Below are positions 1 through 64,000 of a DNA stretch of 64,000 nt, in pieces. The stretch spans positions 1 through 64,000 of the IMG/VR virus record IMGVR_UViG_3300035438_001058; one strand, written 5' to 3'. Both the position numbers and the translations under genes were made by a program. The notes below the pieces were generated by a model. It had not been told where the DNA came from. It saw only the letters and a program-made list of their open reading frames with translations, and made no database searches. Source of the DNA: a virus. Numbering within the stretch: position 1 is the first letter of the stretch; every line of letters starts with the position of its first letter.

Positions 1-2232
1 GCTTGAACTTTCAGTGGGTTGGAAGGAAAAATAGAGAAAGGTAATAAAGCTAAAGTAACTGCTGATGCTGTTGCCAAAGTTAAGGCGCACATTAAAGCGC
101 AATCTTTAGAAGTGGCTAAAGTATTTACACAAGCGGAAGCTGATGTTAACAGTCAAGTTAGAATTCCAGAAGACACTTTATCTCACGCAGCAAAACTTTT
201 AAATTTAAGTTTACCTGAAAAGTTAATTGTTGAAACTTCATCTGCTGAAGAAGTAGCTAAAAATTTAGATATAAGAAACAAAGTAATTGAAAAAGTAGTA
301 GAAAATTTTTATCTAAATTTTGCTATAAATCAATACTCACTTTCACAGATACTATACGGGGACGAAACTTTTTATAAATCTAAAGAAGACCAAACAAAAA
401 GGATTCAAATAGCAACTGCTACAGGAGACACTCTTTTAGTAGATGATAATCATGGAATACCTCGTGATTCCAAAGTAATGGTTGTTGAAGATTTAATTAG
501 AGTTGTAGATGAAGACTTAAGAAATATTCCAGCTGAAGCGTACAGAGCTGATTACGAAGCCTCTGATGCTGAAGGATTTATGCTGCCAGAATTCTACGAT
601 AAGATATCTAGAGCTTACGGGCAAGAAGCTATGACAGACATAGTAATGAAACCTGTTTATTTTTCTATCCAAAATGGCATTCCTGTAGCTATCAAATACT
701 CAGTTAAAGTATTGACGAATGAATTAGTAGATAAATTTCCTCACTTAGCTACTTATAGAGATGCTATGCGAGAAAGAGGAGCTGATCAAATGGTTTTCAA
801 ATCAGCTGTAAAAATCGGAGGTTTAAAAGGAATGGCTAAGTTAGATCAGAAAACAGGTGAGATTATTTCTACATCTGTAAACTCAGAAAACTTCTTAACT
901 TTAAACACTGCCAACTTAAGATTCCAATTAAACCCTGCGCACGATCCTGATGTATCTACAGCTAACCCTTCTCAAATTACAGCTCAAATTAATACTAATG
1001 GGCAAAATCCAAACGAAAGTTTTGAGTTAGCTAATTTAAACGCTGCTTTGTTAAACAGCGGGCTTAGAAGTGTGCAAAGTGATTTAAGATTGTCTGATAA
1101 AGGAACCCCAACAGAATCAACCGCCAGACAACTTCGTGAGACTATAATTAGATACGGAGAATCAAGTAACAATGCTGATGATGTTGTGAGGTTACTACAA
1201 TCCTCAGACCCAGTAACTTTTGATAAAGTTGATTTATCACTACCTTTGATAGCTGGACGTGTTGTGTCCACTATTGCGTCAATGATTTCCAGTGCTACTG
1301 TAGGTTTTAAATTCAAAGGTTCCAAACTAGTATTACAAGCGGATCTTGGAATTCAAAGTATCTATGACAGTGCATCTGGTAAAATGATGAAACGTAAACT
1401 TAATTACAGAGATTCTGAAGGTTATTGCGAAGTTATACTTCCAAGAATGTATGAAAACCATATGCAATTAGGCGACAAGTTAGTCCCTGGGCTTCAGAAT
1501 GGTGTAGTAGGCTTTAGAATACCGTCTACTAACTACCACTCTATGCTTCCATTGAAAGTAGTTGGGTTTTATGACGCACCATCAGGAGCAAAAGCAAACG
1601 TAGTTATAGCCCCTTCTGCTATAGTTTACTATCACGGATCTGACTATGATGTTGATAGTCTATTTATAATGAGAAAGTCTCAATTTAAAGACAAGAATCC
1701 TAAGGGAACTATTACTCCTACAGTAGATTTAAATACTATTTTATCTAAGTATTCCGATAAACATATTATTAATTCGGAGCTAGTAATAACAGCTGATTCA
1801 GTCGTAGGATTTAAAGGCACTAATCCTGCTAAAGCTGATCCTGTTACAGTAGATGGTTTGTTTTTGCACGAATACTTAGAAGGTAAAGTTATTGAAATGT
1901 CAAACCATACGGCAGCTTTATCCAGAACTTTGCTAACTGCTAAAACTCCTAAGGAAAAATCAGCTATAACTACACAACTAACTACTGCTAAAGATGATAT
2001 GTCTGTAATAGAAGATGTTATACAGCAATCTATTAAGAACAGCATAGTAGATTTATACACTACTAATATGTTAGATGTTAAGAATAGAACTGACTTGTTA
2101 ACTCCAATTTCTTTTGAGAATGTAAAGGGACTCAGAAGTGTTACAAAAGAAAAGCTATTGGAACTTTTAAAAGATGCTAATTTTCAAACAGATCTGCAAA
2201 ATGCGGGTATAATACAAAAAATATGTCAATAA
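1..2232 (+). CDS. Virion RNA polymerase, C-terminal part (partial)
   Basis: The frame is open from the first base, so the gene starts upstream of the window. An in-frame TGA at bases 4-6 is read as Trp. At 1642-1656 the protein has DYDVD inside SDYDVDSLF, which matches the metal-binding DxDxD signature of the double-psi beta-barrel RNA polymerases of crAss-like phages (known from the phi14:2 gp66 family). These enzymes are packaged in the virion and transcribe early genes after injection. About 190 residues follow the motif before a TAA stop. The next gene starts inside the last codons. The polymerase assignment rests on the motif and on its giant neighbours; residues around it were not compared with a structure. 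Confidence 0.75.
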
Positions 2233-5200
2233 ATTGTTTAATAAATTTTACCACTGTAAATGAAGAGTCAGTCAGTTTTACGGAGGAACAATTTATAAGC
2301 TATGTTGCAGAGAATGGGTTTGGGGGGATGAAAATCCCCTCAGACAATCCATTGGCAAAATTAATAGTAAATAAATTAGATTTTCTTCGGCAGCCAGAAT
2401 CAGTTTCTGAATACTGAGCTAGAATGGCTATCAATAAAAGATTAATTGCGGAAGGAAAACCTACGTTAAATTCTAATACTTTATTAACATCAGCACAAGT
2501 AGACGCAGAATTAAATCCTTCTGGGCAGTTAACTGATTACAACACTCAAAGACAAATACGGTACAACACTTATTCAGGTATAGATCTAACAGGTATATCA
2601 GCAGCCTTTGGTAAAACTTTAGGATATGTTTTTGAAGCAGGGGCAATAGCATCTGTAATAGACGTTAATACTAAGGAAGTTATTGATCTAAATAAAGAAG
2701 AAGATGTCAAAGCTTTTTTAAAAAAATACGGTCAATACAGTATTGAAGCTGTTTTGAAAAACAATAAAAATTTTAAGATTGTTAGCAGGAAGGAGCCTGA
2801 GTTTACTAGTGCAAATCATTTTACAGTTGACAAAGAACCTTATACAGGTCTAAGTAGAAACACAAAGGGTAAATTTAAAAATATATTTGAGACAATTGAC
2901 TCTATTATCAACTTAGCTATTGACAACGTTAAAGAAGGTAAACTACACTTGATGGGTATTACAGGATCTAACGCAAATATATTCTTTTCTTTGTTAGCTA
3001 CAGGTATGCCTTTGAATACGGTAACACTTATAATGAAGAACCCTTTAATAGTAGAGCTAAGTACTAACGGTAAGAAAATAGATAACGCCGCCATTGATGT
3101 TAAAATAGGCGAATTAAAAAAGTCCTTAGAAGAACTTAAAGGTGAAGAGTATGTCAATATGCTATCAAAAAGTAAAGACATTGATACTAAGTTATTAGAA
3201 CAAATTTATTTAGGTGAACTTACTGGGGCTCTCGCCATAGAAGAAACTCTTAAATCTTTGCAGGTGCTTAGAAGTATGGCAGAAGTTGGTAAATATATGT
3301 TTAAAGCTTCTAAAGTATTTAAAGCTCTTATTAAACTTCCGAATAAAAAGTTTGAGATTGACGATACTGTAAATAATATAGAATCTTTAGGAATGTTTAA
3401 AGATGCCGCTGCGTCTGAAGCTGAGGTTAACAGTGAGTGGATAGATATAGCTGCAGAATTCGCGCGTACCAGCAATGACCCAGATATAGCTAGAGTACAA
3501 GCGCAGCAAGATCAAGAATTAGCTTTAAGTTTAGAAGAGTTAGAAGTTAAATCCTCTGCTAATTTAAAAAGGGAAGATCTTAAAACGAATGCCCAAGAGA
3601 AAGTTTCTGAGCTTTCTAAAACTATAAAAGAACTTAAAAGTAGAAAAACTAAAATTAATAAAATATTAGCAGGTGATAATATTTTATCCGAAGAAGAAAA
3701 GGCTATATTAGTAGAAGAACTAGATAAGAACGAATTAGAAGTAATAAGATTAGACAGTATAAGGGCTGATTTAAACAACGGTTTAACTAAAGTATCTAAT
3801 TATATAGCTAAACTAGTACAAACACCAGAAGGAAGCATTTTTGGTACTGAGAAAGCTGCTATACGTGCGGCATATGTTAATTCTGTTTTAAGAAAAACTG
3901 TTACTAGAGGTGTAGAAGGAAGATCAGATAGTCCTTTTACAACTGACACTACAATTTTAAGAATACCACACGTAGCATCTGTTTATAAAGTTCTTTTGAC
4001 CACACAAGGTTTATTGAATAAAACTTTCGCTGTTTACAATCCCACTATAACAAGTTTTATAAAGAATATAGTAGATAATTATAATATCTTTAAACAAGAG
4101 GACTCTACAGAAAATGTAGAAATAATTACCAAAGAATTCGTAAAATTTGTAGGATCTAATCTTACTTTTAAATTAGATGGGGCTGATTTTTCTACTGAAG
4201 TGCCTTATTCAGAATATCCTTTTGTATCCTCTAGAAATAAACAATATTGGGGGAAAGAAGCTTGGGCCCAAAGGTTTTTGGAAAAAGCTAGATTACTAGA
4301 TGATTCTAATGAAATGACAGAAAATAATTTTGTTAAAAATCTAGAGCTTAGCAATAATACTAAAACAGGACTTACTGAAGCTAGGATATTAGCTGATAAA
4401 GTAAAGGACGACGAAGTATTAGCTAGGATACGTAGAGATTTCGCAGCTTTAGCGGTAGATGAAACAGAGATAGCAGAAGGATATACTAGAGCGGACTTTG
4501 CTAGAGATATGTTTAAATACTCCCTTCTTTCATCTACTATGTATTACGAGAGAACTGGTTTTGCTCAAGTATTCCCAGAACATTGGGCAGTAGCGTATTC
4601 AAAATCGCTATCTTCCAGATTAAACGCTGTGCTGCCAAAAGACAGTGCGGCAACTGACATACATTTGGAAATGTTGAAGGACACCTTTATTACCCAGCTA
4701 ATGACTAACAATAGTTCTATGCTGAATTTCTTAAAGGCTAAACCTGAAGTAGTGGCTTCTAAGAAAGTAAACGGGAAAAAAGAAACTCTTTATGAAGGGT
4801 ATGACGAATTAAACAATGTACATTATCATCTAAAGTTTAAAGGGTCCCCTTATGAAGACGGTAAAAGTTCTGAATTTGTATCTCATTACGACAAAGCTGT
4901 ATATAGAGTTATTAAAACCCCGGGAAGTGTGGACACTTTCTATGTAAGAGTAGCTATGGCTCCCAACAGTAAGTTTTACAACTTTACTTTTAATAATTTA
5001 GGAGGTTCTGTACAACATCGGGAGATAACTTCTGGTAAATATTATGTAACACATTTAGACAATGCCAAAGGAAATGTTTTAAAAGCGCAACCTTTAACTA
5101 CTAACTTTTTGCCAGTAGGAACTGAGGTGCTTGCTTACGACCAAATGAATGTAGGTACTGACACTGCAACAGTTTATACGGTAACTAAAGTAAATGTTGA

Positions 5201-5951
5201 GAATGGCTCATATACTCTGAAAAAATCTAGAACTATAGATCTAAAAGATTATACACAAGGCGATAGACTACGTGCTTTTTACGCTAAATTTTCACCTAGA
5301 AAAACAACTAGTACTATAGCTGTTGACGATATAAAAAGAACGATGGCTAATCTAAAGAATGCTTCTAATACGGTGTTCTTAACCAATTCTAGAGAAAACG
5401 TAAGCGGGACATTAACTTTAAATATTCCGGATATTTCTCCAAATACTACGCAGGAAGAGTTAGCAGTAATAGTAGAGGACATACAAAAAGATATAGAAGC
5501 TTTACCTAATAATAAAAATTATTACGTGTCTTCAAAACTATTGGAGCAATTTAACGACTTTTCTTCTAAAAAAGCTATTCTATTAGCCGCTTTGTTTAGA
5601 CAAATAGGTTACAAAGAAAATAATGCTCCTGTAAGTCAAACTAAAGAAGGTTTGTCTGAGAGTATGAAACGAATAACTCTAGGAATATTAACTTTACCAC
5701 AATACAAGTTGCAAAAAGCTGGCAACGATGTGGCTTACACACACTCTGTTAAAAAGGATCGTGCGTTCAGAAACGTGGCAGTAGGGGATATTCTATGGGC
5801 TGTTAAAGATATTTATATGCACGTAACAGCAGTTACTGAAAATGAAGTGCATATGAGGGAATTTAAAAGTGCGGTATTCATGAGCATAGAAAAAGAAAAT
5901 ATAAGTTCAGATGAATTTGAAACAATTTATAACAAACATAATAACTGCTAA
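2223..5951 (+). CDS. Giant virion-associated protein, 1242 aa
   Basis: A single frame from ATG 2223 to TAA 5951 if the TGA at 2418-2420 is Trp (context SEY-W-ARM). Without that reading it splits into a 64-residue piece and an 1175-residue piece in the same frame. The ATG overlaps the end of the polymerase gene by 10 bases and the stop overlaps the next ATG by one base, so the three genes look co-translated. The sequence is Lys/Glu-rich with a probable coiled coil around residues 400-530. I recognise no enzymatic motif. In crAss-like genomes proteins of this size next to the RNA polymerase are usually ejected with the genome; that role is inferred from position. Confidence 0.7.
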
Positions 5952-8900
5952 TGTGCCCAAATAAAAATTCACAAGAATGAAAAGATCTGGTTAGCAGATT
6001 TGGAGAAAAAGTAGCTTACATAAAATACTTTGCTTCAGACGAGATACAAACAGGAGATGAGCTTTCTAATATAAAAGAAAAGATTCGAGAAGCTGTATTA
6101 GGAAATGAAGAGTATTACGCTAAAAAATATGGGACATACCTAAAAGGATATTCAGCTACAAGTAATACTTTAGATGAAATGGTCGAAGCTTTTGCCCTCA
6201 GATTTACAGACTTGTCTCCAGTAATTAAAGGAGATGTAGTAGAAACTAATAAGGGAAATTTCTTATTGTTTCCAGAAGCAGATGCTGATTATGTTAGAAT
6301 GACCAATGTTCCTTCAGCAATGGACACCATGCTGCATGGTTTACAAGCAAAGTATGGCATACCGTTTACAGTTATAAATGATCCCAAACAAAAGTTTGCT
6401 GGCAAATACATAAATCAAGGGGATAAAAAGATGGTAGTGATTAACACTGCTTATGCTGATGAGAACACTCCTTTACACGAATATTATCACCCATTTGTCC
6501 GGTCCCTACTAGTTAGAAATAGACCTACTTTTGATATGCTTTTAAAGAAAGCAAGGTTAGATGGAGATGTTAGGAATGATTTAGAAGAAGTTGTAGTAGA
6601 CTTTTTAACTAAAAGTGCTAAGCAAAAAATAAATCTTAGTTTATTAGATGTTTTCTTTGATTTTATTAAGAAAATGTTAGGTATTAAACCTACCTTGACT
6701 ATTGATAATGCTACCACTTTAAGTGAAGTTATATCTTTAATAAATAAAGGAGAAGGTTTTAAAGAAGAAAGTACTTTAACCAAAGCTTATCAAAGAGCTG
6801 AAGATATGGCTAAAGACTTTAAAAACATGGTAAAAGACCGCAAAAAAGATGTAATAGTAGATTATATAGAAGCTCTTAAGAAGAACAGTAAAAATTATAA
6901 AACTTCTGACAGTAGTAATTTTTACCAAGATGATTCTAATAATGATGTAGCTAAACGTCTGTCTCCTTTTATAGGAGACGAAGACTTTGGGCAGTTCTCA
7001 CTTAAAGGCAAGAATAAAAAATACACTGTACCAGAGTTTAGGTTGAGAGAGTTATTAAGAAAGGCGGGTTTTAATTTGCAAGACAAGCCTTTAAGTACGG
7101 TAACAGAGACGTTTAAACTTGGAGATCAAACCTACACTGTGGCCCAATTATTAGCTGCGGAAGAATTGAAGTATAGTAAATTCCAGAAGTACGGTAAGAT
7201 GGTTCACTCTTTCTTACAGTTTAAACTTGAGACAGATCCAGACGCTAGAGTTAAAGCTAGAGCTGATGCTGTTAAGTATGCTAATGAATATCAAGCTGCT
7301 GGAGGTGAACCTTTTACTACTTTAGAAAATCACCCTAAACTTTCGGAAATTGATAAAAATTTTGAAGCGATATGTAAACGTGCGGGCATAACAATTACAG
7401 TGGATCTTGAGAAAGGAATTACCGCTAAAATGTTAGATAAAGTTCTTCCGGAGGTTATATTAGTATCTGATCTACTTACTGATGAAAATGGTGTGCCAAT
7501 TGGTACCACAGCTGATGGTATTATACAACACTCTAACGGAGAAATTTCCCTAATAGACTGGAAGACTGGTAATATAGTTAGTGATATGGGAACAGCTTAT
7601 TTAATGGCTTACGGAGAGAAGTTTGATTTAGCAGACTCGAAACTAAATAGAGGTTATTTGGAGTTAGCTTTCCGTGCAATGATATTAAAGGAGCAGCATC
7701 CAGACATGGTTTTTAGAAACATCAGAATAGTTAAACTTAATTATGATGGCTCTTCTCAGAATATGAATCTGGATCTAACACCTTTTTTAAATACTATAGG
7801 AGAATATTATAAGGTAAATAAACCTGAGATTTACGCCAAACTTCAATCGAAGAACCTATTGGAGGCAGCTTCATACGAAGGTGTTGGAGAAGATTTAGTA
7901 GGAGTGTATAAGCAAATTCCACAAGGATTGGAATATGCGGAACAAGTTGATTGGTTAAAAACTCAATTAGCAATATTACACGCCAATAAAACTAAAGAAG
8001 AGATTCAAAGAGACCCTGCTGTTCTTAAAAGATCTATTCAATTAACTAACGCAATATTAGAGTTAGAGAAAATTCCTGGAGCTAACTTTAACGAAAACAC
8101 TCCAGACCTTCCTTTTATAGGCAATCTAAAGAACTTTTCTGACATTGCTAATCCAAAGGTACAGACCTTACATAAAGTTTTATTAACAGCTAAAGAAACT
8201 ATACATAAAATAACTGGAGACAGGAATACTGAGCATGATAAATTAATGCTTGCTGTTGAAAAGGATGCTAAAGTAAAACGTAAAAACACAACCTTACAAG
8301 TGTCGGCTTCAGCTCTAGTACTTTACGGCGTAGTGGCGTATTCTTTCTTACCTTTTGCTGGAGGTTTATTACTGTACAAAATAGGTAAAAGAGCTTTTAC
8401 ATCTACAACTAAAGACTTTTACAGCTTTATGTGGAGACAGTCTACTGATGTGGGCCGTCCTGGTTACTATATGAATACTGGAGATACCTACATAGACGGG
8501 CAAGGTAAAGTTCAGAAGATGACTCAAGCTCAAACAGACTACAGGAATTTTATACAGCGTACTATGCGCGAAGATTTTAATAAAATTGCTAATAAAGTCG
8601 TCGGCCAAAAGTTGAGCGGGCAACCCATGTATATGTGGGAAAGACAAGGCTGGCCTTCTGAATTACCAGATGACTTTATGCCTCGCATTCCAAAACCAAC
8701 TGACGAACTTAGAGAAGAAGAAGACTTTACTTCTAATTATTTAGGTTTAAAAACAACTTTATCTAACAGCGCTCGTAAATACATGACATCATTTGTCGAG
8801 GATACTTTTGGTGATCCTGAAGGGACTATTCCTCTTAAGTATTTTAAGCACACAGGCTCTAGTGTAGTTGAAAATGGTATGCACTCTATGCACGCTGAAG

Positions 8901-10528
8901 CCAGTTATAAAAGTTTTATGGCGTCTTTACATTACAAAGATAACATGGACACTGTAAAGGATATGTTTATAGGATTGTCAAATGCTATGAATGAGGAATT
9001 AGATGAGAACCGTAAAGCAAAATATCCTGAGACTGTAAAATGGTTAGATAATCAGTTTTATCCTCAAGTTTTAGGAACATCAAAAGCGGTCACTATTAGC
9101 GCTAAGAAAATGAAGTTTACAGCTGGGGCTCTTACGGAGAAAATAACAGGTATTAAGGAAGGCACACCAATGTTCTTATCACAAGACGCGTTTTTAAGAG
9201 CTGTCAAAACAAGTGTGACTGCTTCTGTCATGGCTTTTAAAGTGTTTAGTCCGTTAAAAAACGCGGCTATGATTGCGACTCAAAACGCATCACAAGCTAC
9301 TCGTAATCTTGTAAATGGTGCTATAGGCAGTATAGTTGGAGTTCCTCCAGATACGTATGAAGGCATATCCCATAAAGCAGCTCATCCTCTATTCGTGGAT
9401 TTTTTATCGAAGAAATTATCTGGGAGACAAGATGAATCTAAACTATGGAACTTAGCTAAGAATTTTGATTTCTTGCCAGAAAGTTTCGGAGATTATGGAG
9501 CACAAGACGAACGGCTAATGTCAAATATGATAAATATAAGCACAATGTCTCACGCTTATGTATTCTACAATCTTGGCGAGACTATGGGGGCTTTGTGGCA
9601 ATTAGCCGGGCTAATGAAAGGTATTAAAGTTAAAGTAGACGGGAAAGAGATAAGTTTATGAGATGCTTATAATGACAAAGGTGAGTGGGCTGCTGGCGTT
9701 AGAGGTGTTGTAGAAGTAGCTCCGGGAGTATTTAAAAATCTAGAAGGATTAGACGTCTTAGAAATAAAGTCTCTGAAAAGAGCCAATGAGAAATTGAATG
9801 GATCTTACAGAAAGGAAGAAAAGACTGCTATGGAAGCTACTGTTATAGGAGAATACGTGTTTCAGTTTAAAAAATATTTTTACCAGTATTGGAAAACACT
9901 TGCGGCTAGCCCATATAAGGATATAACAGTCGGAAAGCACGTTTTAACGGGAGTTCGTCCTGACGGTATGCCTATATACCAATGGCACTCAGATGTCATG
10001 GAGGGGCAATTTAGAGTCTTATACAATGCTATTCTAGCTGGTATGTCCTTAAAGAAAGGATCCTTAAAGCATTACTTAACAGATACATCTATATACGGAG
10101 CTAATACTCTTAAAGGTCATAGAATTAGGGTTTTAGGTAACTCAGTAAACACCTTAATATGGTTCGCAATATTGTTGTCAGCTTTCCACGGATTTCTTGA
10201 CGATGACGAAGAAAAAAGTTTTGTGGGAAGACAACTACAAAAAACTATAGATGACTTAACAAGAGGCTTATCACCAAAAGATTTGATGGGTAACTTAGAG
10301 AAGCCAGTAGTAGCTTCTGAAAAGATATCTAAAGTAGGAGCAGCTACTTGGGATTTTATGACTGAAGGTGTATGGGGGGAAACAAATTCTGCCGGTAATA
10401 GGGTAGGAGCAAAAACTCTCATTAGATCTATTCCAGGGTTTTCTGGAGCAAGACAGATGTTGGATGTAATGGATTCCAGTTTAGGAGAAGATGTGTTTGA
10501 AAGTCCATTTATACCTAATTATAGGTAA
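5951..10528 (+). CDS. Giant virion protein with zincin-like HEYYH and PD-(D/E)XK nuclease motifs, 1525 aa
   Basis: It runs from ATG 5951 (in TAATG with the previous stop) to TAA 10528, with TGA read as Trp at 5978-5980 and 9659-9661. Near residue 176 there is HEYYH (bases 6476-6490), the HExxH zinc-binding pattern of metallopeptidases. Near residue 520-540 the stretch ADGII...SLIDWKTG fits the core of a PD-(D/E)XK nuclease. A hydrophobic stretch around residue 780-800 could insert in a membrane. A protease plus a nuclease on one giant protein beside the RNA polymerase suggests a packaged, self-processing ejection protein; this is inference. The last gene of the rightward transcript, followed by a terminator. 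Confidence 0.7.
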
Positions 10529-11496: not shown

Positions 11497-12004
11497 AGGT
11501 TTCTCTTTTGGGAAAAGGACGTGGCCAAACTTCAGCGTTCTCAGGCAGAGAAACGCCTATCTTTTCCTCCCAGTCTTTCCTCCACAAATCGCTGCGTTCG
11601 AAAACTAAGCGATTACCATAACGTGGGTGCATATTACTGAGTGGAAAATGTTTATCCACTATCACTTTATCTGCTTTAGAATACTCTCCAACCAGAATAT
11701 GTTTTACATATCCTGCTAGCGTATCTTTCGGTAATTCGAATACAAACATTCTGTACCCAAGCATAGTAGGTGCGTAATCCTCTACATATGATGGCACTGT
11801 CTTGAAGTAATCCGAGAGTTCCTGCGGCAGATCCTTGTTGTACAACATTAAGATGTGTGAACCTCAGTTCTGGTATTTCTCCGATGTAGCGTCAGCAGAG
11901 TACGTATCTTCATAATACGGCCCAATTAAGTTTGTAGGCGCTTTCTCTTTTAACTCTAGTAGCGGGGATAAGAATGCGGCTGTGATGGAGAATTTAAGTT
12001 TCAT
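11459..12004 (-). CDS. Unknown protein, 181 aa, one TGA(Trp)
   Basis: From ATG 12004 the frame continues through a TGA at 11864-11866 (context YQN-W-GSH) to TAA 11459. A standard-code reading would lose the first 52 residues. The N-terminus (MKLKFSITAAFLSPL) resembles a weak hydrophobic leader but is not convincing as a signal peptide. The Trp- and aromatic-rich C-terminal half (RSDLWRKDWEEK) is not one I can assign to a family. It follows the RecB-like nuclease gene by 4 bases. Confidence 0.65.
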
Positions 12005-53778: not shown

Positions 53779-56164
53779 AAAATCAGAAGATGATTTTAGA
53801 TGGGCGAGGAAAGTTATGGAATCTTTACTTCAATTTTCTCCAGCACAAAAGAATATAGCTAGTGATTACACTTCAGAGTACGGAAGGAAATTATCTAACT
53901 ATAGGTTGTACAATAATCAACTAGATCAGAAAGATTTTGAGAGAGAATGTAATCCATTAGGATTAGAAGTAGGGCAATTCCAGGATTCAATACAACCTTA
54001 TAATAAGACATATAATAAGATTCAGGTTTTATTAGGTGATGAGTTAAAACGTCCGTTTAATTACAGAGCGGTTTTAGTCAACACTGAGGGCGTGCAGTCT
54101 AAGTTACAGAAGAGAGATTCTTTATATAGAAACTATATATACTCTCAGTTACAAGAAACAGTGAAATCTATAGGTGCCGCTTATGTTCCAGAGTTAGTCG
54201 ATACAATGACAGAGCATATACTACCTCCAGAGGACATTGAAAAATACATGAAGTACTCCTATCGAGAGCGAAGAGAAATCTTAGCTGAGAATATACTCAA
54301 CTATTTAACGAGAAAATTATCCTTAAAAGATAAGAAAAACGATGCTTTCAAGCACGCGTTAATAGCTGGAGAGGAAATCATTTATGTAGGTACTAATAAT
54401 GGTGAGCCTCACCTAGAAGTCATTAATCCCCTAGGAGTGTTTTACCACAAGTCTCCAGAAACAAAGTGGATCCAAGATTCATTATATGCTGGATTTAGGA
54501 CTTATATGACGGTAGGAGAGGTTATGGATAGATACGGTAAGTATCTAACCAAGGCTGAGATTACTAAGCTGGACAATACCACTACAGCAGGAGGAGCTTT
54601 ACCAGACCATAATATGGGCAGTACGCAGTCGTACGGCATACAAGATCAAGATAGGGTTTTATCTAAGATGTATAATTATGACTCAGGATCTTACGGAGAT
54701 TCTCACCACGAGGATATATTAGTACAGCACGTGGAATGGAAGTCCCAGAAAAAAGTAGGCTTTCTAACCATGATAAATGAGTATGGGGAAGAAGAAGAGC
54801 AGATGATATCTGAAGATTTCAAAGTCCCTAATAATGCTATAAAGCAGGTGGAAGTAAAAGACTTTGGTCAAAGATGTGATTATTATTATTGGGAAGAGAA
54901 TGGTATAAAATTCAAATTAGAATGGGACTGGATTCCAGAAGTTTGGACTGGTACAAAGATCAATAACGATATTTATTGCATGATAGGACCTAAAGATCAA
55001 CAATTCAGACCTTTAGATAATCCCAAAGAAGTGTCCCTGGGGTATCACGGAGTAATCTATAATGCTATGAACGCTACCTCTATCTCATTGATGGATAGAA
55101 TGAAGCCTTACCAGTATCTGTACTTTATTGTTATGCATAAGCTTAAAAAAGCTATAGCACAAGACCAAGGTAAAGTATTTCACTTCGATGTTACAATGAT
55201 TGATCCTAAAATAGGATTGGATAAAACCATGTACTATTTAAAGGAGATGAATATAGACTTTTTTAATCCATTAGCTAATGGAGATCAGCCTGGGCAAAAT
55301 CAAAGGGGTAAAGTATCGCACTCTACCGATATGTCTAATATGGCCAATATCAATAACTATATTAATCTACTGCAATCCATTGATCAGCAAATATCAGACG
55401 TAGCAGGTATTAATAGACAACGAGAAGGACAAATTTCTCCTTCAGAAGCGGTGTCTAATACCCAATCAAACCTTCAAATGTCGGCTTTGATTACTGAGAT
55501 TTATTTTCAAGCTCACTCCAAACTATGGGAGAAATGTTTGAATTCAATGATAGCTGTAACCCAACAAGCTTGGAAAGGTAAAAGTATAGCAAAGCAATAC
55601 ATATTAGATGATCAATCAATCGCTACACTAGAGATGAATAATGATGATATTATGGATTGTGAGCTAGGAGTTTTTGTTACGGATTCAGGTAAGGAGTACG
55701 AAATATTCAATGCTCTTATGGGCAAAGCGGAGTCACTTGTACAAGCACAAAAAGCTTCTTTTTCTGATATGATCCGATTATACGAGTCTAACTCAGTAGC
55801 AGAATTAAAGGCTGGTATAGAAAGCTCTGAAGAACTAAGTCAGAGACGACAGCAAGAAGCACAACAAGCTCAAATAGAAGCAGCTCAACAAGCTCAACAA
55901 GCAGAACATGATTTCCAAATGGAGAAATTGGCTATAGAACAAGAGCATGAGTTAATGATAGCTCAGATTGAATCATTTAAATTCCAGAAAGACCAGGATG
56001 CAAATGATAATGGGTTACCAGATCAATTTGAGATTTATAAGTTACGTCAAGACGCTGGTTTTAAAGATCGTAAACTATCCCTAGAAGAAAAAAAGTTAGA
56101 ATTCAATAAGCAGAAAAGCGAAAAAGAGTTACAAATAAAGCGTTCTCAAAACAATAAAAAATAA
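53741..56164 (+). CDS. Portal protein
   Basis: 807 residues. Size, position between TerL and the scaffold/capsid genes, and the long acidic-to-helical C-terminus (QRRQQEAQQAQIEAAQQAQQ...) suit a crAss-like portal with a coiled-coil crown. Motif pieces include FERECNPLGLEVGQF and IQVLLGDELKRPFNYRAV. It forms the ring through which DNA enters and leaves. The start overlaps the TerL end by 38 bases. Confidence 0.8.
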   Translation: MLNFPKQRLSYSKKSEDDFRWARKVMESLLQFSPAQKNIASDYTSEYGRKLSNYRLYNNQLDQKDFERECNPLGLEVGQFQDSIQPYNKTYNKIQVLLGDELKRPFNYRAVLVNTEGVQSKLQKRDSLYRNYIYSQLQETVKSIGAAYVPELVDTMTEHILPPEDIEKYMKYSYRERREILAENILNYLTRKLSLKDKKNDAFKHALIAGEEIIYVGTNNGEPHLEVINPLGVFYHKSPETKWIQDSLYAGFRTYMTVGEVMDRYGKYLTKAEITKLDNTTTAGGALPDHNMGSTQSYGIQDQDRVLSKMYNYDSGSYGDSHHEDILVQHVEWKSQKKVGFLTMINEYGEEEEQMISEDFKVPNNAIKQVEVKDFGQRCDYYYWEENGIKFKLEWDWIPEVWTGTKINNDIYCMIGPKDQQFRPLDNPKEVSLGYHGVIYNAMNATSISLMDRMKPYQYLYFIVMHKLKKAIAQDQGKVFHFDVTMIDPKIGLDKTMYYLKEMNIDFFNPLANGDQPGQNQRGKVSHSTDMSNMANINNYINLLQSIDQQISDVAGINRQREGQISPSEAVSNTQSNLQMSALITEIYFQAHSKLWEKCLNSMIAVTQQAWKGKSIAKQYILDDQSIATLEMNNDDIMDCELGVFVTDSGKEYEIFNALMGKAESLVQAQKASFSDMIRLYESNSVAELKAGIESSEELSQRRQQEAQQAQIEAAQQAQQAEHDFQMEKLAIEQEHELMIAQIESFKFQKDQDANDNGLPDQFEIYKLRQDAGFKDRKLSLEEKKLEFNKQKSEKELQIKRSQNNKK

Positions 56165-56231
56165 AACGGCTATTGTAAACTACAAATTTACTTATTAGAC
56201 CTTGTAAAATATATAATATAATATTATTTTT

Positions 56232-57275
56232 ATGATAAATACGAATGATGACTTTTTAGAGCAAATGTTTTCTGATCCTTCAACTACTCCATCAATGCTA
56301 AATGATGATAAAGGTTTTGAAGATTCCCCAGAAATAACTTCTGATGAAACAGAAGAACCAGAAGACGCTCCGGAAGCTCCTAGAGAAGTTTTAGAAGACA
56401 ATGACCCAGTTGTAGAGAATTACGTAAAGTTTCTACAAGAGAATGATCTTATAGAGATACCAGAAGATTACGATTTTCAAGGTACTCCAGATCAAATTCA
56501 GGAAGTATTTGAGTACACTAAAAAAACTAGGTCTGATAAAGCTATACAATCAGTTTTTCAGCAACTTCCAGACGACTTCAAACCACTCCTAGAATACGCG
56601 CTTAGAGGCGGGACTTCTCTGCAGGATTATATGGATACTTTTTCTGATGACTTATCTAACTACGGTTTAGACACTGAAGAAGACCAAAAAGAAATTCTAT
56701 TTAAATACTACAAAGAAACCTCTCCTTATCCAGACGATAAAATTGAGCGGTTGATTTCTCGTTTTAATGATGAGGAAGAACTACGTCTGGAAGCAGCTGA
56801 TGCTTATCAAGAGTTGCTGCAAATACGCGAAGAAAAAAAGAGAGAGCTCATCGTGGAAGCACAGGCTCAAAGAGAAGCGTATAGAGCAGATCTTGAACAA
56901 AAGACTATATCTTTAAACAGAGCTATAGAAGAAACAACTGCTATTCATCCACAAAGAAAAAACAAAGTACGGGCTTTCTTTTTTGATCCCATACAAACAG
57001 CAAACTCTGTTACTACAGGATTTAATGCTACGATAGCTTCTATCTTATCAAATCCAGAACATCAGGCACAACTTGCTGATATACTATTAGATTATAATCA
57101 TAATAATGGTTTTTCCTCTGATAGAATAGAACGACGTGTTAAAACTAAGGCAACTCAAGATTTTAAGACGTTATTGAAAACTAAACTAGATCCAAAACAA
57201 GCTCAAAGATCTTCAACATCTAGAGCACCTCAATCAACTTCCTTTAATTGGGAAGACTATTCACAATCTTTATAA
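56232..57275 (+). CDS. Scaffold-like protein
   Basis: 347 residues, strongly acidic N-terminus (DSPEITSDETEEPEDAPEAP), a helical middle with a long coiled coil (EELLQIREEKKRELIVEAQAQREAYRADLEQK split over residues 190-225) and a basic end. Position directly before the major capsid protein and these features are those of a scaffolding protein. The gap to the portal gene is 67 bases and AT-rich. Confidence 0.65.
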   Translation: MINTNDDFLEQMFSDPSTTPSMLNDDKGFEDSPEITSDETEEPEDAPEAPREVLEDNDPVVENYVKFLQENDLIEIPEDYDFQGTPDQIQEVFEYTKKTRSDKAIQSVFQQLPDDFKPLLEYALRGGTSLQDYMDTFSDDLSNYGLDTEEDQKEILFKYYKETSPYPDDKIERLISRFNDEEELRLEAADAYQELLQIREEKKRELIVEAQAQREAYRADLEQKTISLNRAIEETTAIHPQRKNKVRAFFFDPIQTANSVTTGFNATIASILSNPEHQAQLADILLDYNHNNGFSSDRIERRVKTKATQDFKTLLKTKLDPKQAQRSSTSRAPQSTSFNWEDYSQSL

Positions 57276-57280
57276 TTTAC

Positions 57281-58756
57281 ATGGCTACTCCTCAATCTTC
57301 TTTAATAATCAAACGTTACGACGCTTTTGGCGGTAACTTTATTGATTCTGATTACCTAGCTGCTTCTTACGAGAGCGGCAAACCTACATACCTGCCAGGT
57401 ATGATGATGCAGACATATTCGTCACAGTCACGCTTTATGAATCTGAAACCCCTCTTGAATCTTGTTGGCGTTAGTTCCAACGGAGGAAAAGAGATTGAAT
57501 CTGAAATTGTTCGTTGGTACCTACGTGGCGCAGAAGATCGCGATGCTCGTTCTATTGAAGCTGTAGATATTACCAACACTACACCAGGTCTTAACGGTAC
57601 TACTTTCCGCATTAAATTGGATTTGGATTATTTCCACTTCCCAGATATCCTTACTCCAGAAGATAACGATTTCCCTATTCAAGTAGTGGAAGGAGCAATT
57701 CCAGACGGTACAGGTTACATTTATGTTTGTAAACTTGTTACAGACAACCCACAGCTTTTTGTAGACCCTAATCTTTTACAGGCTGGTCGCACTTTCACTA
57801 AAGTATCTACCGCTGTGCCTTCTGAGTACAACCAATGGTTCGGCACTCAGCAGTATCCAAACGTATTCTTGCTTGAAGCACAACTTGGTTCTTTCGGACA
57901 ATCTTTGCACATCACTGACAAAGCTTGGAGAGACGGTGGTCGTCTTGGAGTTACTTTCCAGCACACTAACGCTGCAGGCGCTACTTCAGAGGTAAACAAA
58001 TTTATCCCTTACGCAGAGAACGTAATGGTAGATGAGTTCTACAAAACTATCGAATGGGCAGCTGTATACGGTAAGAAATCTACCATGTCAGGTCCAGATA
58101 AATATTGGATCAAAACAGGTCACGGTCTTCGTGAGCAACTCAGAGATGGTTGGACTCAGCAATACACTGGAGCTCTTTCTGTAACACTTCTTCAAGATTA
58201 TCTGATGTCCGTATTCTTTGGACGTGCTGATGAGACTAATCGTGATGTAAAAGTAATGACCGGAACTCTCGGTTCAATCTTGTTCCACAATGCTTTGGCA
58301 GCTGTGGCTAACGGATTCCTTACCGTTGATACACACTATGTACGCGATATCAAATCTCCTACATCTACTCCTTGGCTTGCTTATGGCGCAGAGTTCCGTC
58401 GCTATACTGGTCCATCAGGTATCTCCGTAGATTTGATGTTGAATCCAATGTACGATAGTATGCAGTATTGCAAACAATTCCACCCACAGTACCCAGATAT
58501 GCCGATTGATTCCGCTCGTATGACATTCCTTGATTTTGGAGGAATGGGCGTAGACAAGAACATTGAGCTTCTGAAAGTTAAGGACTCTTTCTATTACGGC
58601 TACAAGCCTGGTATGTTGTCCCCATCTGGCCCAATCAAAAATAACGGTATGTTTGGCGAATTAAAAGCTGGTTACGATGTAGCTATCCAAGGTTCTTTCG
58701 GTATTGTTATGCGTGATGTAACCCGTGGTGGTGAACTTATCATGTCTGTAGAGTAA
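57281..58756 (+). CDS. Major capsid protein
   Basis: 491 residues from ATG 57281 (MATPQSSLIIKRYDAFGGNF), six bases after the scaffold stop; an in-frame ATG at 57248 is rejected because it lies inside the scaffold gene. Size, position and codon use fit the HK97-fold capsid protein of crAss-like phages. Codon choice is markedly more C- and G-ending than in its neighbours, as expected for a very abundant protein. The stop overlaps the next start by one base. Confidence 0.85.
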   Translation: MATPQSSLIIKRYDAFGGNFIDSDYLAASYESGKPTYLPGMMMQTYSSQSRFMNLKPLLNLVGVSSNGGKEIESEIVRWYLRGAEDRDARSIEAVDITNTTPGLNGTTFRIKLDLDYFHFPDILTPEDNDFPIQVVEGAIPDGTGYIYVCKLVTDNPQLFVDPNLLQAGRTFTKVSTAVPSEYNQWFGTQQYPNVFLLEAQLGSFGQSLHITDKAWRDGGRLGVTFQHTNAAGATSEVNKFIPYAENVMVDEFYKTIEWAAVYGKKSTMSGPDKYWIKTGHGLREQLRDGWTQQYTGALSVTLLQDYLMSVFFGRADETNRDVKVMTGTLGSILFHNALAAVANGFLTVDTHYVRDIKSPTSTPWLAYGAEFRRYTGPSGISVDLMLNPMYDSMQYCKQFHPQYPDMPIDSARMTFLDFGGMGVDKNIELLKVKDSFYYGYKPGMLSPSGPIKNNGMFGELKAGYDVAIQGSFGIVMRDVTRGGELIMSVE

Positions 58757-59103
58757 TGAATATAGAGCAGCAACTGGGAATCAAGTTGTCTGTACTAGTA
58801 GCAGGTTTAGTAGGAGGCATCGTTTCACTAACTTACGAAGAAAAAATCTCTTTTCAAAGAGCCGTTCTTCTTATAGTAGCTGGTGCCTCTACTGCAGCCT
58901 ATTTACAACCATTAGCTGAACACTATATGAGTATCCCAGAGAATTTCTCCTCTGGTTTAGGATTTGTTTTAGGACTGATTTCCATGAAATTAATAGATTC
59001 CGTAATGATAAACGCTACTCATTTATTAGATAAATATTTGTATGCAAAGCGAAATAATCCCCCTGACACTGACGGCGACAAACGTAGCAGTGACATTGAT
59101 TAG
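58756..59103 (+). CDS. Membrane protein, holin-like, 115 aa
   Basis: Three hydrophobic segments (LSVLVAGLVGGIVSLTY, AVLLIVAGASTAAYL, LGFVLGLISMKLI) and a charged C-terminal tail (KRNNPPDTDGDKRSSD). This topology is that of a class I holin. It begins at the end of the capsid gene (TAATG), an unusual place for a holin but seen in crAss-like phages. The stop is TAG. Confidence 0.6.
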   Translation: MNIEQQLGIKLSVLVAGLVGGIVSLTYEEKISFQRAVLLIVAGASTAAYLQPLAEHYMSIPENFSSGLGFVLGLISMKLIDSVMINATHLLDKYLYAKRNNPPDTDGDKRSSDID

Positions 59104-59317
59104 CATTGCTGGGATAATACATATTCTCCAGGAAAAATTTATGCAGCCCAAGGCTTTAAAAGAAAAGTCTAAATGTGTATATTATATTCTTAGAGGGTCC
59201 CTAGCATCTTTAGCTGCCGTGCAATTGGTAACTTTATCATTCCCTGTATCTATACCGCTTTTGCTTGTTAATTTATGTACAGCAGCCATATCTACAATAG
59301 TAACAAAAAACTTTTAA
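59042..59317 (+). CDS. Small membrane protein, 91 aa
   Basis: Two or three hydrophobic stretches (LTATNVAVTLISIAGIIHIL, SLAAVQLVTLSFPVSIPLLLVNL). It overlaps the previous gene by 62 bases in another frame. Together they could form a holin pair; that is inferred. Confidence 0.55.
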   Translation: MQSEIIPLTLTATNVAVTLISIAGIIHILQEKFMQPKALKEKSKCVYYILRGSLASLAAVQLVTLSFPVSIPLLLVNLCTAAISTIVTKNF

Positions 59318-59364
59318 CAATACGTTGGGAATTCCCAGCGGTCTTCATCTCTTAAAGAAGTAAA

Positions 59365-60351
59365 ATGAGCAAATTAGTATTTATTTATAGTATCCCCAGA
59401 AACACTGCTTCTGGTATATCCGATTGGGTGAGCGATACTTCAGGAGTTAAACTAAAGAAAACAAAAGTTGGACGCGCAAAAGACAAACTTTCTGCGTTAT
59501 ACTCTGATAGAATTGGAGGACTAGCTAACTATATTTCATACAATTATCACACAGATCCAAAGACAGGTAAGCAAACTTTAAATGATAAAGGCGAACCGAT
59601 GTTAATGCAAGAATATTTGGAAAAAAAGTGGAACAAACCTCCAGGTTATTTTACAAACCAAGCTACAACTAGAAATTACAAAGGAGACGGTTCTGACTTT
59701 ACTTATTTCCAACAAACTGTTTGGACATTAGCAGACGGGTGCACCGTATTAGATTTAAATAAAATGGACGATGAGTTAGGATACTATATGTTCCTAGCAT
59801 CTTCTAAAGTAGCTAACTCTGAGCGAGAGTGGAAAGAACACAAGTGGCCAAAAGCTACTCACTACATTGCTTTGGAGAATGAATCTGAGGAGTTGAAATA
59901 CAACAGAACGCAACTTAAAACAAAAGCGTATGCTGCACTACACTCAGTAGATCTCACCGAAGTAGTAAAACGTAAGTTAGTATCTTTGTTAAATTTAGCT
60001 TCTACTAAAGCTAAATTATCTGAGCAACAAGTGCATAATGTGTTAACTGATTATATAGAAGCTTCGTCGTACACAGCCGGGTCTAATATTGAGAAGTTTC
60101 AAAACCTAGTGAATATGTTGAAAACAGCTCCCACAAGAGAGAAGTTTGAGGCAATGTATCTTCTAAAGAATGCGGACGATTTAGGTATTATTATTTCTAA
60201 ACAAGATATATGGACTTGGTTAAATCCAAAAGGATCTCCCCTTACTATAGGTAATAGATACTCTGAGGCAATAGAATTTATTTTAAATCCTAAAAAAGCT
60301 GACGAGATTTTAGAGATTAAACAAAATATCAAAGACAAACAAAATCAATAA
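59365..60351 (+). CDS. Structural protein, 328 aa, unassigned
   Basis: A long soluble protein with no signal peptide; mixed helix content and pieces such as LLNLASTKAKLSEQQVHNVLTDYIEASSY and KQDIWTWLNPKGSPLTIGNRY. It lies between capsid and connector-type genes. It is probably a virion or assembly protein conserved in the group, but I cannot name it. Confidence 0.6.
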   Translation: MSKLVFIYSIPRNTASGISDWVSDTSGVKLKKTKVGRAKDKLSALYSDRIGGLANYISYNYHTDPKTGKQTLNDKGEPMLMQEYLEKKWNKPPGYFTNQATTRNYKGDGSDFTYFQQTVWTLADGCTVLDLNKMDDELGYYMFLASSKVANSEREWKEHKWPKATHYIALENESEELKYNRTQLKTKAYAALHSVDLTEVVKRKLVSLLNLASTKAKLSEQQVHNVLTDYIEASSYTAGSNIEKFQNLVNMLKTAPTREKFEAMYLLKNADDLGIIISKQDIWTWLNPKGSPLTIGNRYSEAIEFILNPKKADEILEIKQNIKDKQNQ

Positions 60352-60353
60352 TT

Positions 60354-61082
60354 ATGGCAAGTGTTAAGGAATTACATTACCAGTTTAAATTAAACATGGA
60401 TAAGGTAGATAGTCTTAACGGCCCAGATTTCAATACAGCACAAATTGACTGGCTTTTAACAGAAGCGCAATTGGTGTTTATTAAACAACGTATGTCTATG
60501 AGTTCGAATTCAAAACAAAAAGGATTTGAACAATCGCAAAAAAGAATTGATGATTTAGGAACATTAGTTATCAAGTTTCCAAATCAAACGGGTATCACTC
60601 CCTTAAACCCATCTCCAGGAGTTTATGAAGTCTCCTTTAGTTCTTTACTATTTTCATACTTATTTTTAATATCTGCTTGGGCTGATATAACTATATCTCC
60701 AAATTGTACCAAATCAGTTCCACTTAAATTTACGCAGCACGATGATTATAGGACGTCACTAAAAGACCCCTTTAACGAGGCTGGAGAAGAATTTATACCA
60801 TATAATATAGGAAGATCTTCTAGCAGTAATGATGAATCTGTTTATTTATATTCAGATTTTCCAATACAAAAAGTATATCTGGAATATGTTCGGTACCCAT
60901 TAAAAGTATCATCTGGCACCTACAAATATATAGATGGGGTGATTTATCCAGAGCAATCACTACAAACCGCAACTCAAACCCACTCTGAAATTGTGGACAT
61001 CGCCTGCTTACTAGCAGGGATAAGTGCACAAAGTCCGGAGTATATCCAACTTAAGAGTCAAAAACTCTTAATACACGAATAA
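60354..61082 (+). CDS. Probable head-tail connector or ring protein, 242 aa
   Basis: The N-terminus (DFNTAQIDWLLTEAQLVFIKQR) and a beta-rich rest (KVYLEYVRYPLKVSSGTYKYIDGVIYPEQSLQTATQTHSEIVDIACLLAGI) resemble phage connector/adaptor proteins, whose final helix often contains a D-I-A-x-x-L motif. It starts 2 bases after the previous stop. Named by pattern and position only. Confidence 0.55.
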   Translation: MASVKELHYQFKLNMDKVDSLNGPDFNTAQIDWLLTEAQLVFIKQRMSMSSNSKQKGFEQSQKRIDDLGTLVIKFPNQTGITPLNPSPGVYEVSFSSLLFSYLFLISAWADITISPNCTKSVPLKFTQHDDYRTSLKDPFNEAGEEFIPYNIGRSSSSNDESVYLYSDFPIQKVYLEYVRYPLKVSSGTYKYIDGVIYPEQSLQTATQTHSEIVDIACLLAGISAQSPEYIQLKSQKLLIHE

Positions 61083-61086
61083 TATT

Positions 61087-62481
61087 ATGATTAATAATCA
61101 AAAACGTGCCACAGAATCTTTTCTAGTGGCAACTACGGCAGCTACGACTATACCTATTACAGGAACATTAAACGACTCAACAACGTCATCAAGTACGTTT
61201 GGGAATGTAAATTTGGCCAACGGTCAACTTGGTTTAGTAGCTCAAGGAATGTCTGGCACTGTGGCATATAATAGTTTTTTGTCCGCAACTCCGGCGCTCA
61301 CTGGCAGCAATGCTTTTGCAATCTTCCAAGGAAACGAGAACTCAGCTTCTATGACTTCTGCTACAGCTGTGTACCCACTAGCTGTTCGTCCTTACGAAAG
61401 AACCAATGTTATTGATGGCACTAAAGGTCCTATTCTTGTTACAAAACAAGAGTATAGAGCTGCAACCCACAACATCTGGGCTTTAGGTTCTATTAATACT
61501 ACCGGTGCTATAAACGTACTTGATGACACTGAATACCGTTTTTACATGACCTTTGCAGGTCGTAATGTTGACGAACTGTCAAATGGTACAACACAGTCGT
61601 CAGGTTTAAGAGTTTCTTTTACAACTCCCGCAGATCTTTCTACAAATACAGTTACTTATACAAAACCAATTGATTGGATCGCAACTAAACTTGCGTATGA
61701 GATTAACCGCAATTCAAGCGCGTTTACTTTGTCTAGCAAATGGAGAGGAACTAATCCAGTGGTAGCTTTTGCAGTTGGTACATCTGCTACAAACGGTACT
61801 TCGATTGCAGGATTAACAGCTACTGGACAAAATTTGGCAGTATTTACGTATAACGGTACAGATCGTTCTATTTACTTAACTCCTGAGATGGTAGCTTCGT
61901 TGAAAGCGGCAGTTACACCGCCACCAGCAGGAACAACAAATCCTTTTAATTTTACATACATATATAAAGTGGCTGTGAGCGACGCTGGTGTTGCTACTGC
62001 AAACGATACTTTAGGTGTTCTTATAATGGCTTTAGATCGTACTACTTCTTATGTAGATCGTATCCCAGAAGTTAAGGTTAGAATTCGTCCAGGTTTGAAC
62101 GCAGGTTTTAACTATAACACAGTTAGTTTATTAGAACGTTCATTAGCTGACGAAGGTCAAGGTTACTCTCGCCAACTGGATATTCTGTATAAGAATACTG
62201 CTGGCCAACGTAAGTACGCACAACGCCATGTAGTTGATCCTATTATCGAATACCCATCTCCAATTGTTGCGGGTGGTTCGTATGTAGTTTACAACATTAA
62301 TCACGGACGTTCTGAGCAAGTGTCTTCAACTGGAGGTGCAGTGTATTCCCCATACAGGGAGATTATCTGCATTCCAAGATTTAACAGTGTGGGTGCTACT
62401 CATGGCGCAATAGGCCTGCTTGACGCAGCTTTAAATTCTTATTTATCAGCTACAGCTAATCCAACAGTTATAGTAATTTAA
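61087..62481 (+). CDS. Head decoration or auxiliary structural protein, 464 aa
   Basis: Ser/Thr/Ala-rich beta protein (TTAATTIPITGTLNDSTTSSSTFGNVNLANGQLGLV), followed by an ordered domain (VRIRPGLNAGFNYNTVSLLERSLADEGQGYSRQLDILYK). Codon use is capsid-like, suggesting high expression. The gene closes an operon with a strong terminator. Confidence 0.6.
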   Translation: MINNQKRATESFLVATTAATTIPITGTLNDSTTSSSTFGNVNLANGQLGLVAQGMSGTVAYNSFLSATPALTGSNAFAIFQGNENSASMTSATAVYPLAVRPYERTNVIDGTKGPILVTKQEYRAATHNIWALGSINTTGAINVLDDTEYRFYMTFAGRNVDELSNGTTQSSGLRVSFTTPADLSTNTVTYTKPIDWIATKLAYEINRNSSAFTLSSKWRGTNPVVAFAVGTSATNGTSIAGLTATGQNLAVFTYNGTDRSIYLTPEMVASLKAAVTPPPAGTTNPFNFTYIYKVAVSDAGVATANDTLGVLIMALDRTTSYVDRIPEVKVRIRPGLNAGFNYNTVSLLERSLADEGQGYSRQLDILYKNTAGQRKYAQRHVVDPIIEYPSPIVAGGSYVVYNINHGRSEQVSSTGGAVYSPYREIICIPRFNSVGATHGAIGLLDAALNSYLSATANPTVIVI

Positions 62482-62487
62482 TCAACA

Positions 62488-62520
62488 AAGGGGAGTAGGA
62501 ACAATCCTACTCCCCTTTTT
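62488..62520 (+). terminator. Rho-independent terminator
   Basis: A perfect 13-bp stem (AAGGGGAGTAGGA with TCCTACTCCCCTT) with a 4-base loop, followed by T5. It separates the capsid operon from the fibre genes. Confidence 0.93.
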
Positions 62521-62542
62521 CATTACATATAAAGTATAAAAT

Positions 62543-63046
62543 ATGTTAATAAAATATAACGTATCTTCTACCCCTGCTTTGAGAGTAGACAATAAACCTT
62601 TGTATAAAGTTTATACTTCAAACTCAGTAGTGGGAAATGGAACGCAGAGTAGTCCTCTGGCAGTGTTAGGGAAAATAAACGCGAAAGGACTAACAAATGA
62701 TGGATTAGATTATGCTATTTCAGTAGCAAATTTGTCCGGCATTAATTTATTTAGTACGTTAAATAACGGTAAAATACTTTTTTATACTACACTTACTCCT
62801 GTAGGAACAGATGGTGCGCAAACTATTCATAAGCCAACTGGAGTAGTAAACATTGCAGTGGCAGGTTCCTCAATAGTAGTAACTAATAATTTAGTTACTG
62901 CAAACAGTACTGTATTTGCTGTTATACGTACAGCTGATTCTACTGCTGCTATAAAAAATGTAGTTCCTGCAGCAGGATCGTTTACTATTAATTTAACTGC
63001 TGCAGCAACAAGCGCAGTATCTATCGGATTTTTTACAATTAACTAA
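62543..63046 (+). CDS. Head/tail fibre-type protein, 167 aa
   Basis: NSVVGNGTQSSPLAV is the repeat seen in many phage fibre proteins, and the C-terminal stretch TANSTVFAVIRTADSTAAIKNVV, then SFTINLTAAATSAVSIGFFTIN, is a recurrent fibre/spike domain of Bacteroidota phages. It is likely exposed on the virion and binds host or mucus glycans. Separate expression from the capsid operon. Confidence 0.7.
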   Translation: MLIKYNVSSTPALRVDNKPLYKVYTSNSVVGNGTQSSPLAVLGKINAKGLTNDGLDYAISVANLSGINLFSTLNNGKILFYTTLTPVGTDGAQTIHKPTGVVNIAVAGSSIVVTNNLVTANSTVFAVIRTADSTAAIKNVVPAAGSFTINLTAAATSAVSIGFFTIN

Positions 63047-63050
63047 TAAC

Positions 63051-63428
63051 ATGAGAAACTTCAAACTTTTTTTAAATAAACAACTCTTTACCACTTCAGG
63101 AACTAATCGTGTAGATCTCCAAAAAGTACTTGGTATAGATTCTAGTATTGATAATAAAACCTTCGTAGGTTTGGGTACAAATACAAATACTCACATTTAC
63201 GGAAATATTAGTACAGGCGCAACTGCTACCACAACCGCAGGAGCTGCTTTTCAAGTAAACAGTACCACAGGAGGATTAGTTGTCCCAGTAATGACGGGAA
63301 CAGAAGCAGTAAGTTATAATACTGCTGGAGCACCAGATGGCGCAATTATCCACGTAACAACTGCTAGCGGTGTGTTTTTATCCGCAGGTTTTTGGGGGAA
63401 AACTGGTGGAAGCTGGGCTAAGTTTTAA
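63051..63428 (+). CDS. Fibre-type protein, 125 aa
   Basis: TNTHIYGNISTGATATTTAGAAFQVNSTTGGLVVPVMTGTEAVSYN is a fibre tip-like sequence of low-complexity beta repeats; the end GVFLSAGFWGKTGGSWAKF is typical of such domains. It starts 4 bases after the previous gene. Confidence 0.65.
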   Translation: MRNFKLFLNKQLFTTSGTNRVDLQKVLGIDSSIDNKTFVGLGTNTNTHIYGNISTGATATTTAGAAFQVNSTTGGLVVPVMTGTEAVSYNTAGAPDGAIIHVTTASGVFLSAGFWGKTGGSWAKF

Positions 63429-63450
63429 GTTAATATATAAACCCTAGAGA

Positions 63451-64000
63451 ATGCTAACTATTGATAAGATAAAAACTTTAGAAATCCCTTTTAATTCTAC
63501 TAGAAAGAATAATTTTGGGCCAGCAACTCAAGGACTAGCACTGTACAACGATTCGGTAAACTTATACAAGGCAATTTCTTTAGTATTGTCCAATTACGTA
63601 GCGAGTAGTACTACCGCTGTATTTGCACAAAACGCTGTGGGAAGTATAATGACGGATACAGCGTCCGTTAACTTTACATACAATACCGTTACTCCATCTA
63701 TTACAGCAGATGTAATACCAGGAGGAATAAATCACAACAACTTATTAAATTACGTAGCTAATGAACATATAAATCATGCTACAGTAAGTATATTAGCAGG
63801 CGCAGGGTTAACTGGAGGAGGTGATTTAACTTCTTCCAGAACTCTAAACTTGTCTGATTTAATAGTAGCAGAAACTAAGGGAAGTGCCTCAGAGATTCCA
63901 GTTATAACAGCGAATTCTCAAGGAAGAATTACCGGCTGGGTAAATACCCCTATTTCTATAGACACATCTGCTATAACAAATTTAACCGAAACTATTCAAG
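63451..64000 (+). CDS. Tail fibre protein, partial
   Basis: Open from ATG 63451 to the end of the window (183 codons). NYVANEHINHATVSILAGAGLTGGGDLT and SRTLNLS form the classic tail-fibre signature (G-x-G-L-T-G-G-G-D-L-x-x-x-R-T-L). The C-terminal receptor-binding part lies beyond the window. Confidence 0.8.
   Translation, partial: MLTIDKIKTLEIPFNSTRKNNFGPATQGLALYNDSVNLYKAISLVLSNYVASSTTAVFAQNAVGSIMTDTASVNFTYNTVTPSITADVIPGGINHNNLLNYVANEHINHATVSILAGAGLTGGGDLTSSRTLNLSDLIVAETKGSASEIPVITANSQGRITGWVNTPISIDTSAITNLTETIQ

Follow-up and report, generated by a model that had tools for sequence, protein, structure and literature searches.

Two readings of the codon UGA coexist in the genome of an uncultured phage represented by a 64,000-nucleotide stretch of viral DNA (the window), comprising bases 1-64,000 of the 85,208-base IMG/VR record IMGVR_UViG_3300035438_001058; the remaining 21 kb of the record were also analyzed. 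On the evidence of the sequence, the replication, giant and late genes of this phage use TGA for tryptophan (Trp), and TGA is a stop codon in a block of genes at 27-45 kb of the same genome. The interpretation proposed here, and considered fairly probable, is that one infection is run in two codes, with the block expressed first in the host code, followed by replication and late genes whose translation would depend on a suppressor tRNA.

Codon usage was evaluated with a curated recount of the genes, in which those outside the block were called with TAA and TAG as stops and those in the block (27020-44902, - strand) in the standard code. TGA and TGG numbered 4 and 19 in the giant genes (1-10.5 kb), 15 and 51 in the replication arm (10.6-27 kb), 2 and 10 at 45.2-49.9 kb, and 22 and 90 in the late genes (49.9-85 kb), with TGA accounting for none of the 73 Trp codons of the block, a depletion evident against both the replication arm (p=5.5e-6) and the late genes (p=8.6e-6). 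TGA terminates 12 of the 28 genes in the block, as compared with none of 60 elsewhere (p=1.5e-7). The claim of two codes in one window, made in the original prediction, was thus confirmed, and the eleven TGA-ended block genes listed there (27600, 28888, 29426, 31706, 32121, 32582, 35398, 38460, 39277, 40188 and 43628) were all present, together with one more at 38,219.

Calling genes in the standard code excludes internal TGA from the block by definition, and the role of TGA as a stop needs other evidence. It was found that standard-code genes cover 94% of the block, that its TGAs, if read through, would crowd at C-termini (Kolmogorov-Smirnov p=4.7e-6), and that several of the TGA stops form 4-nt ATGA or GTGA overlaps with the next start (at 40,190; 39,279; 38,221; 35,400; and 32,584); because of these three features, TGA is taken to be a stop there. 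The overlap evidence applies to the window only; a mechanical count was unclean elsewhere, the replication arms of two related phages (G010 and G019) also giving matches, some with TAA or TAG just behind. Within the window, the TGA at 21136-21139 (-) of the recoded helicase gene (21106-22308, -; two in-frame TGA, aligned with Trp) corresponds to Trp in relatives and at the same time overlaps the next start as ATGA, such that the same bases could be a Trp codon or a stop.

The two codes are laid out along two arms. A divergence point lies at ~45 kb, with the replication arm running leftward and the late arm rightward. On the leftward arm, the block is closest to the divergence point and the replication genes (27-11 kb) lie beyond it, in the distal part; the boundary between the codes falls inside a transcription arm.

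Relatives were located via TerL, helicase and polymerase, a GroEL-based search having yielded mostly unrelated phages, and whole or large records were analyzed. Three further recoded lineages were found (G010/G011, G004, and G018/G019/G020/G022), in which TGA and TGG were counted from aligned homologous stretches. In the replication arm the counts were 17 TGA and 56 TGG for the window phage, 12 and 38 for G010, 21 and 39 for G019, and 11 and 26 for G004; the late arm gave 25 and 100, 11 and 83, 5 and 71, and 0 and 47, respectively, and the block contained no TGA beside 15 TGG in G010, 12 in G019 and 4 in G004. The zero for the G004 late arm is read as essentially none, because a count based on open reading frames over part of that arm gave one TGA versus 27 TGG. 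The replication-arm TGA codons of G004 align with Trp in other phages. Replication genes are therefore the constant recoded module across the four lineages, and G004 is recoded essentially only there. Standard-code phages G021 and G023 nest in the group beside G004 in a replication-protein tree (a single unrooted FastTree run), which implies either a loss of recoding there or more than one gain.

Alignment with relatives also bears on the identity of the inserted residue. Among 157 aligned cells at TGA sites outside the block, 91 (58%) held Trp, compared with 60% at TGG sites. The original prediction was right in reading TGA as Trp, and equally in its crAss-like assignment: TerL, portal and major head protein of the window phage match the crAss-type PHROG 6681, 6547 and 11589, respectively, indicating that it belongs to the Crassvirales (crAss-like phages), and the closest cultured TerL is that of Cellulophaga phage phi14:2 (37%). 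Its counts of four internal TGA codons each in the DNA primase (15182-16156, -) and the small nuclease held, whereas TerL (51451-53778, +) has up to six, aligned with Trp, rather than five, if its start is near 51,451. A different residue, such as Ser, might be considered from the UCA-anticodon tRNAs of G010 (L034 11867-11963) and G022 (L175 7644-7737), which resemble Ser/Sec-type tRNAs in having a long variable arm and give a weak tRNA-Sec score. However, TGA in both phages aligns with Trp despite these tRNAs, and at the TGA sites of G019 and G022 Ser makes up 3-5% of aligned residues versus ~50% for Trp; Ser or Sec at UGA was rejected on these alignments, and insertion of a residue other than Trp is extremely improbable. 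It is also very improbable that UGA means Trp in the host's own code, with the phage merely following it, as might be supposed from the recoded G004, in which no UCA tRNA was found: in four lineages the block genes are intact and use UGA as a stop but never for Trp, and the window phage has a UCA tRNA of its own.

The block was correctly described at the outset as richer in G+C than the rest (0.445, vs 0.39 for replication and 0.37 for late genes). This, and the many block genes without a homologue in the relatives retrieved, would be expected if the block had been imported recently from a standard-code source and were still unadapted to the phage code, an origin that had been put forward as one possibility. 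However, the two glucosaminidases, the MoxR/vWA pair and the gene at 27,020 have homologues at the matching place in G010/G011, and some of them in G004, where they are likewise in the standard code, and the G+C order of block > replication > late is identical in all four recoded lineages. The shared order points to the higher G+C of the block as an old trait of the architecture; recent acquisition is largely refuted, and is regarded as quite improbable.

Placement of TGA within genes was evaluated by within-gene permutation of the distances of TGA and TGG from the start, which removes gene length as a source of bias. TGA was closer to the gene start than TGG in each of the four lineages (p=0.015, 2.5e-4, 0.006 and 1.5e-4; z -5.5), these tests being partly dependent through common ancestry and some TGA sites in common. 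The start-ward shift was missing in seven control pairs with A-ending codons, so A-rich gene starts were rejected as its source. At Trp sites shared by the window phage and G022, the TGA or TGG state is kept (odds ratio 9.6, p=1.6e-5), with Lys, Glu and Gln control codons near random (odds ratio ~1.4); conservation holds inside the replication arm alone (odds ratio 7.0, p=0.006) and is partly explained by the 5' bias and by module differences. The remaining lineage pairs had no significant TGA-site sharing. Additionally, the virion-core genes (53.7-65.2 kb, through the gene after 63428), including portal, major head protein and neighbours (53741-63428, +; no TGA), use TGA for none of 33 Trp codons; in the remaining late genes the figure is 22 of 79 (p=2e-4, an optimistic value, the region having been picked after the counts were known).

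The 5' bias and the absence from the virion core support the view that UGA is leaky in recoded genes, as would follow from the continued presence of host release factor 2 (RF2). Both are also expected if cost alone were at work, with UGA leaky in all phage genes, fatal in the early block, and elsewhere tolerated and drifting to cheap positions under no gate or regulation. This explanation is judged somewhat unlikely; it does not by itself account for TGA persistence between the window phage and G022, although the 5' bias and module differences cover part of that. The in-arm code boundary, the recoding of replication genes, the start-proximal UGA and the kept sites are hard to attribute to drift alone, and the lineage-wide partition, together with UGA near gene starts, is suggestive of selection on the code switch.

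A suppressor tRNA was assumed in the original prediction without one being reported, and a tRNA with anticodon UCA is indeed present at 49100-49171 (+). It has a short variable loop and G73, and is presumed to be a Trp-inserting UGA suppressor, probably charged with Trp. Near it, at 48478-48758 (+), is a transfer-messenger RNA (tmRNA) gene, scoring 54.6 bits with covariance model RF00023 (gathering 47), with an Ala-type G3-U70 and a tag, DNNTNDFGIGLPSFSTEAVAPSVTQEQPVYQYA, followed by a TAA stop. Close to where the late arm begins, both the window phage and G018/G022 have a tmRNA with a UCA tRNA following it within ~0.3-0.9 kb. Among 277 loci, many overlapping or partial, ARAGORN reported stop-anticodon tRNAs in the window phage and G018/G022 groups only, a custom scan added the long-armed UCA tRNA of G010, and a few other phages carry a tmRNA without a suppressor. 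The tmRNA thus adjoins the UCA tRNA in two of the three lineages having the latter; this co-location is real, although the independent cases number two, and published studies of SsrA and read-through suggest what its function may be. On inspection by eye, the three UCA tRNAs share G1-C72, G73 and a G-U pair at 2-71. The tmRNA tags of recoded phages (window 48478-48758; L175 8560-8808; L186 2352-2600) are of 30-33 residues, start with DN and end with YA; other phage tags encountered end with AA, the usual proteolysis signal. Tryptophanyl-tRNA synthetase, RF-1/RF-2 and SmpB were not found in the 85-kb record, where a search for RF2 had been recommended, or in five relatives' records (records that may be incomplete), and therefore host machinery must supply these functions.

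With recent import set aside, expression of the block before the suppressor accumulates appears to be the best remaining account of the two codes. In the proposed sequence of events, unmodified host ribosomes would begin with the promoter-proximal block, and RF2 would terminate its genes at UGA. The UCA tRNA of the phage, to which the host enzyme would attach Trp, would then build up and outcompete RF2, allowing completion first of the distal replication genes and subsequently of the late genes. Leakiness would persist, and UGA would be kept where termination is cheap, near starts, and be missing from capsid genes, and it would effectively gate translation. Meanwhile, ribosomes that read through UGA stops of host and block genes would become stranded at mRNA ends, and the tmRNA of the phage, together with SmpB from the host, would help to release them; in bacteria, suppressor read-through is reported to lead to trans-translation (Ueda 2002, as cited in PMC3985003). 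A more far-reaching version is offered tentatively and is rather doubtful: the UCA tRNA and the tmRNA would constitute a cassette dedicated to code switching, with UGA near replication-gene starts as an evolved gate that delays DNA replication until the suppressor has been produced, and with the tmRNA retained for clearing read-through ribosomes.

Several points weigh against running one infection in two codes. The block-first timing is conjectural, and the 5' bias also fits plain cost selection without gating. The UCA tRNA is situated in the late arm, outside the early block, and a long-arm UCA tRNA, as in G010 and G022, is unusual for a Trp carrier. Searches of G004 gave no suppressor tRNA despite its recoded replication arm, and those of G010 gave no tmRNA although its UCA tRNA is present, from which it follows that the tmRNA is not required.

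The recoded replication arm (11038-26950, -) encodes the small nuclease, an exonuclease, a UDG-like protein, primase, Sak4, DnaB, an SNF2-type helicase and PolA, and the block adds an AAA ATPase and a CHU_C protein to its glucosaminidases and MoxR/vWA pair. The CHU_C type IX secretion domain of the latter (40188-40874, -) suggests that the host, or the source of the gene, belongs to the Bacteroidota. The divergence region between the arms (44903-45195) has repeated G-rich motifs, and at 45179-45209 and 45478-45508 (+), upstream of rightward genes, are two similar matches to a Bacteroidota-type promoter (TTG...TANNTTTG), which are loose consensus matches only. The first late-arm gene with in-frame TGA (47678-48172, +) has two, at Trp in relatives' alignments; a small protein (49189-49554, +) between the UCA tRNA and the GroEL-like chaperonin (49944-51545, +) matches DUF5856 and PHROG 858 (starvation-inducible regulator). 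The late arm ends with three giant genes (1-10528, +), of which those at 2,223-10,528 had no Pfam match and, from their place at the corresponding end of the late arm, are candidates for the giant virion RNA polymerase of Crassvirales. Among relatives, G004 has four tRNA-like genes in its early block (L041 13763-18502), one of them (18424-18502) apparently without a normal D arm. The G022 block contains a type-P3 twister ribozyme above the gathering score (L175 16463-16526), the G019 replication arm has a group I intron match under gathering (L171 2792-2977; 37 vs 50 bits), and G010 TerL (L034 15177-18563) is a 1128-codon frame with an extra stretch, possibly an intein, between its two conserved parts.

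These findings address the question of why phages adopt a code unused by the host, and they make the idea of a code switch as a timing device testable, via codon position and ribosome rescue, in comparable genomes.

Among known systems, Cellulophaga phage phi14:2 (Crassvirales, Steigviridae) has the same two-arm layout, with a replication arm and a late arm containing GroEL, TerL, portal, head protein and a giant RNA polymerase, but differs in its standard-code annotation and family-B polymerase, and no tmRNA or tRNA is annotated in the 100 kb examined. The window tmRNA resembles other phage-encoded tmRNAs in its RF00023 score above gathering, Ala-type acceptor and TAA-ended tag, and differs in adjoining a UCA tRNA and in having a long tag ending in YA, where others end in AA; no description of a tmRNA/UCA-tRNA code-switch cassette was found in the literature surveyed. 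The SsrA system with suppressor-tRNA read-through, as far as it is described in PMC3985003 (Ueda 2002), would follow the same logic, a suppressor giving rise to non-stop ribosomes that tmRNA clears, except that in the present case the phage encodes both tmRNA and suppressor, and the link is suggested by their co-location only. TGA- or TAG-recoded crAss-like phages (PMC7886860; Zeta phages including Lera, PMC12386605) share TGA as Trp, a UCA suppressor tRNA in some, and a partial standard code; the general phenomenon is already known. New relative to the literature surveyed are the reversed partition and its recurrence in relatives, the TGA-specific 5' bias, the conservation of TGA sites, and the tmRNA beside the suppressor. 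Published recoding in crAss-like phages concerns mainly late genes (PMC7886860, Yutin et al. 2021), with reassignment mostly in structural and lysis genes (PMC10136315), a pattern that neither the window phage nor G004 follows. As the original prediction had recognized from the replication genes of the window, the replication arm is recoded, here in all four lineages, with late genes less so or hardly at all, and the endolysin-like genes lie in the standard-code block.

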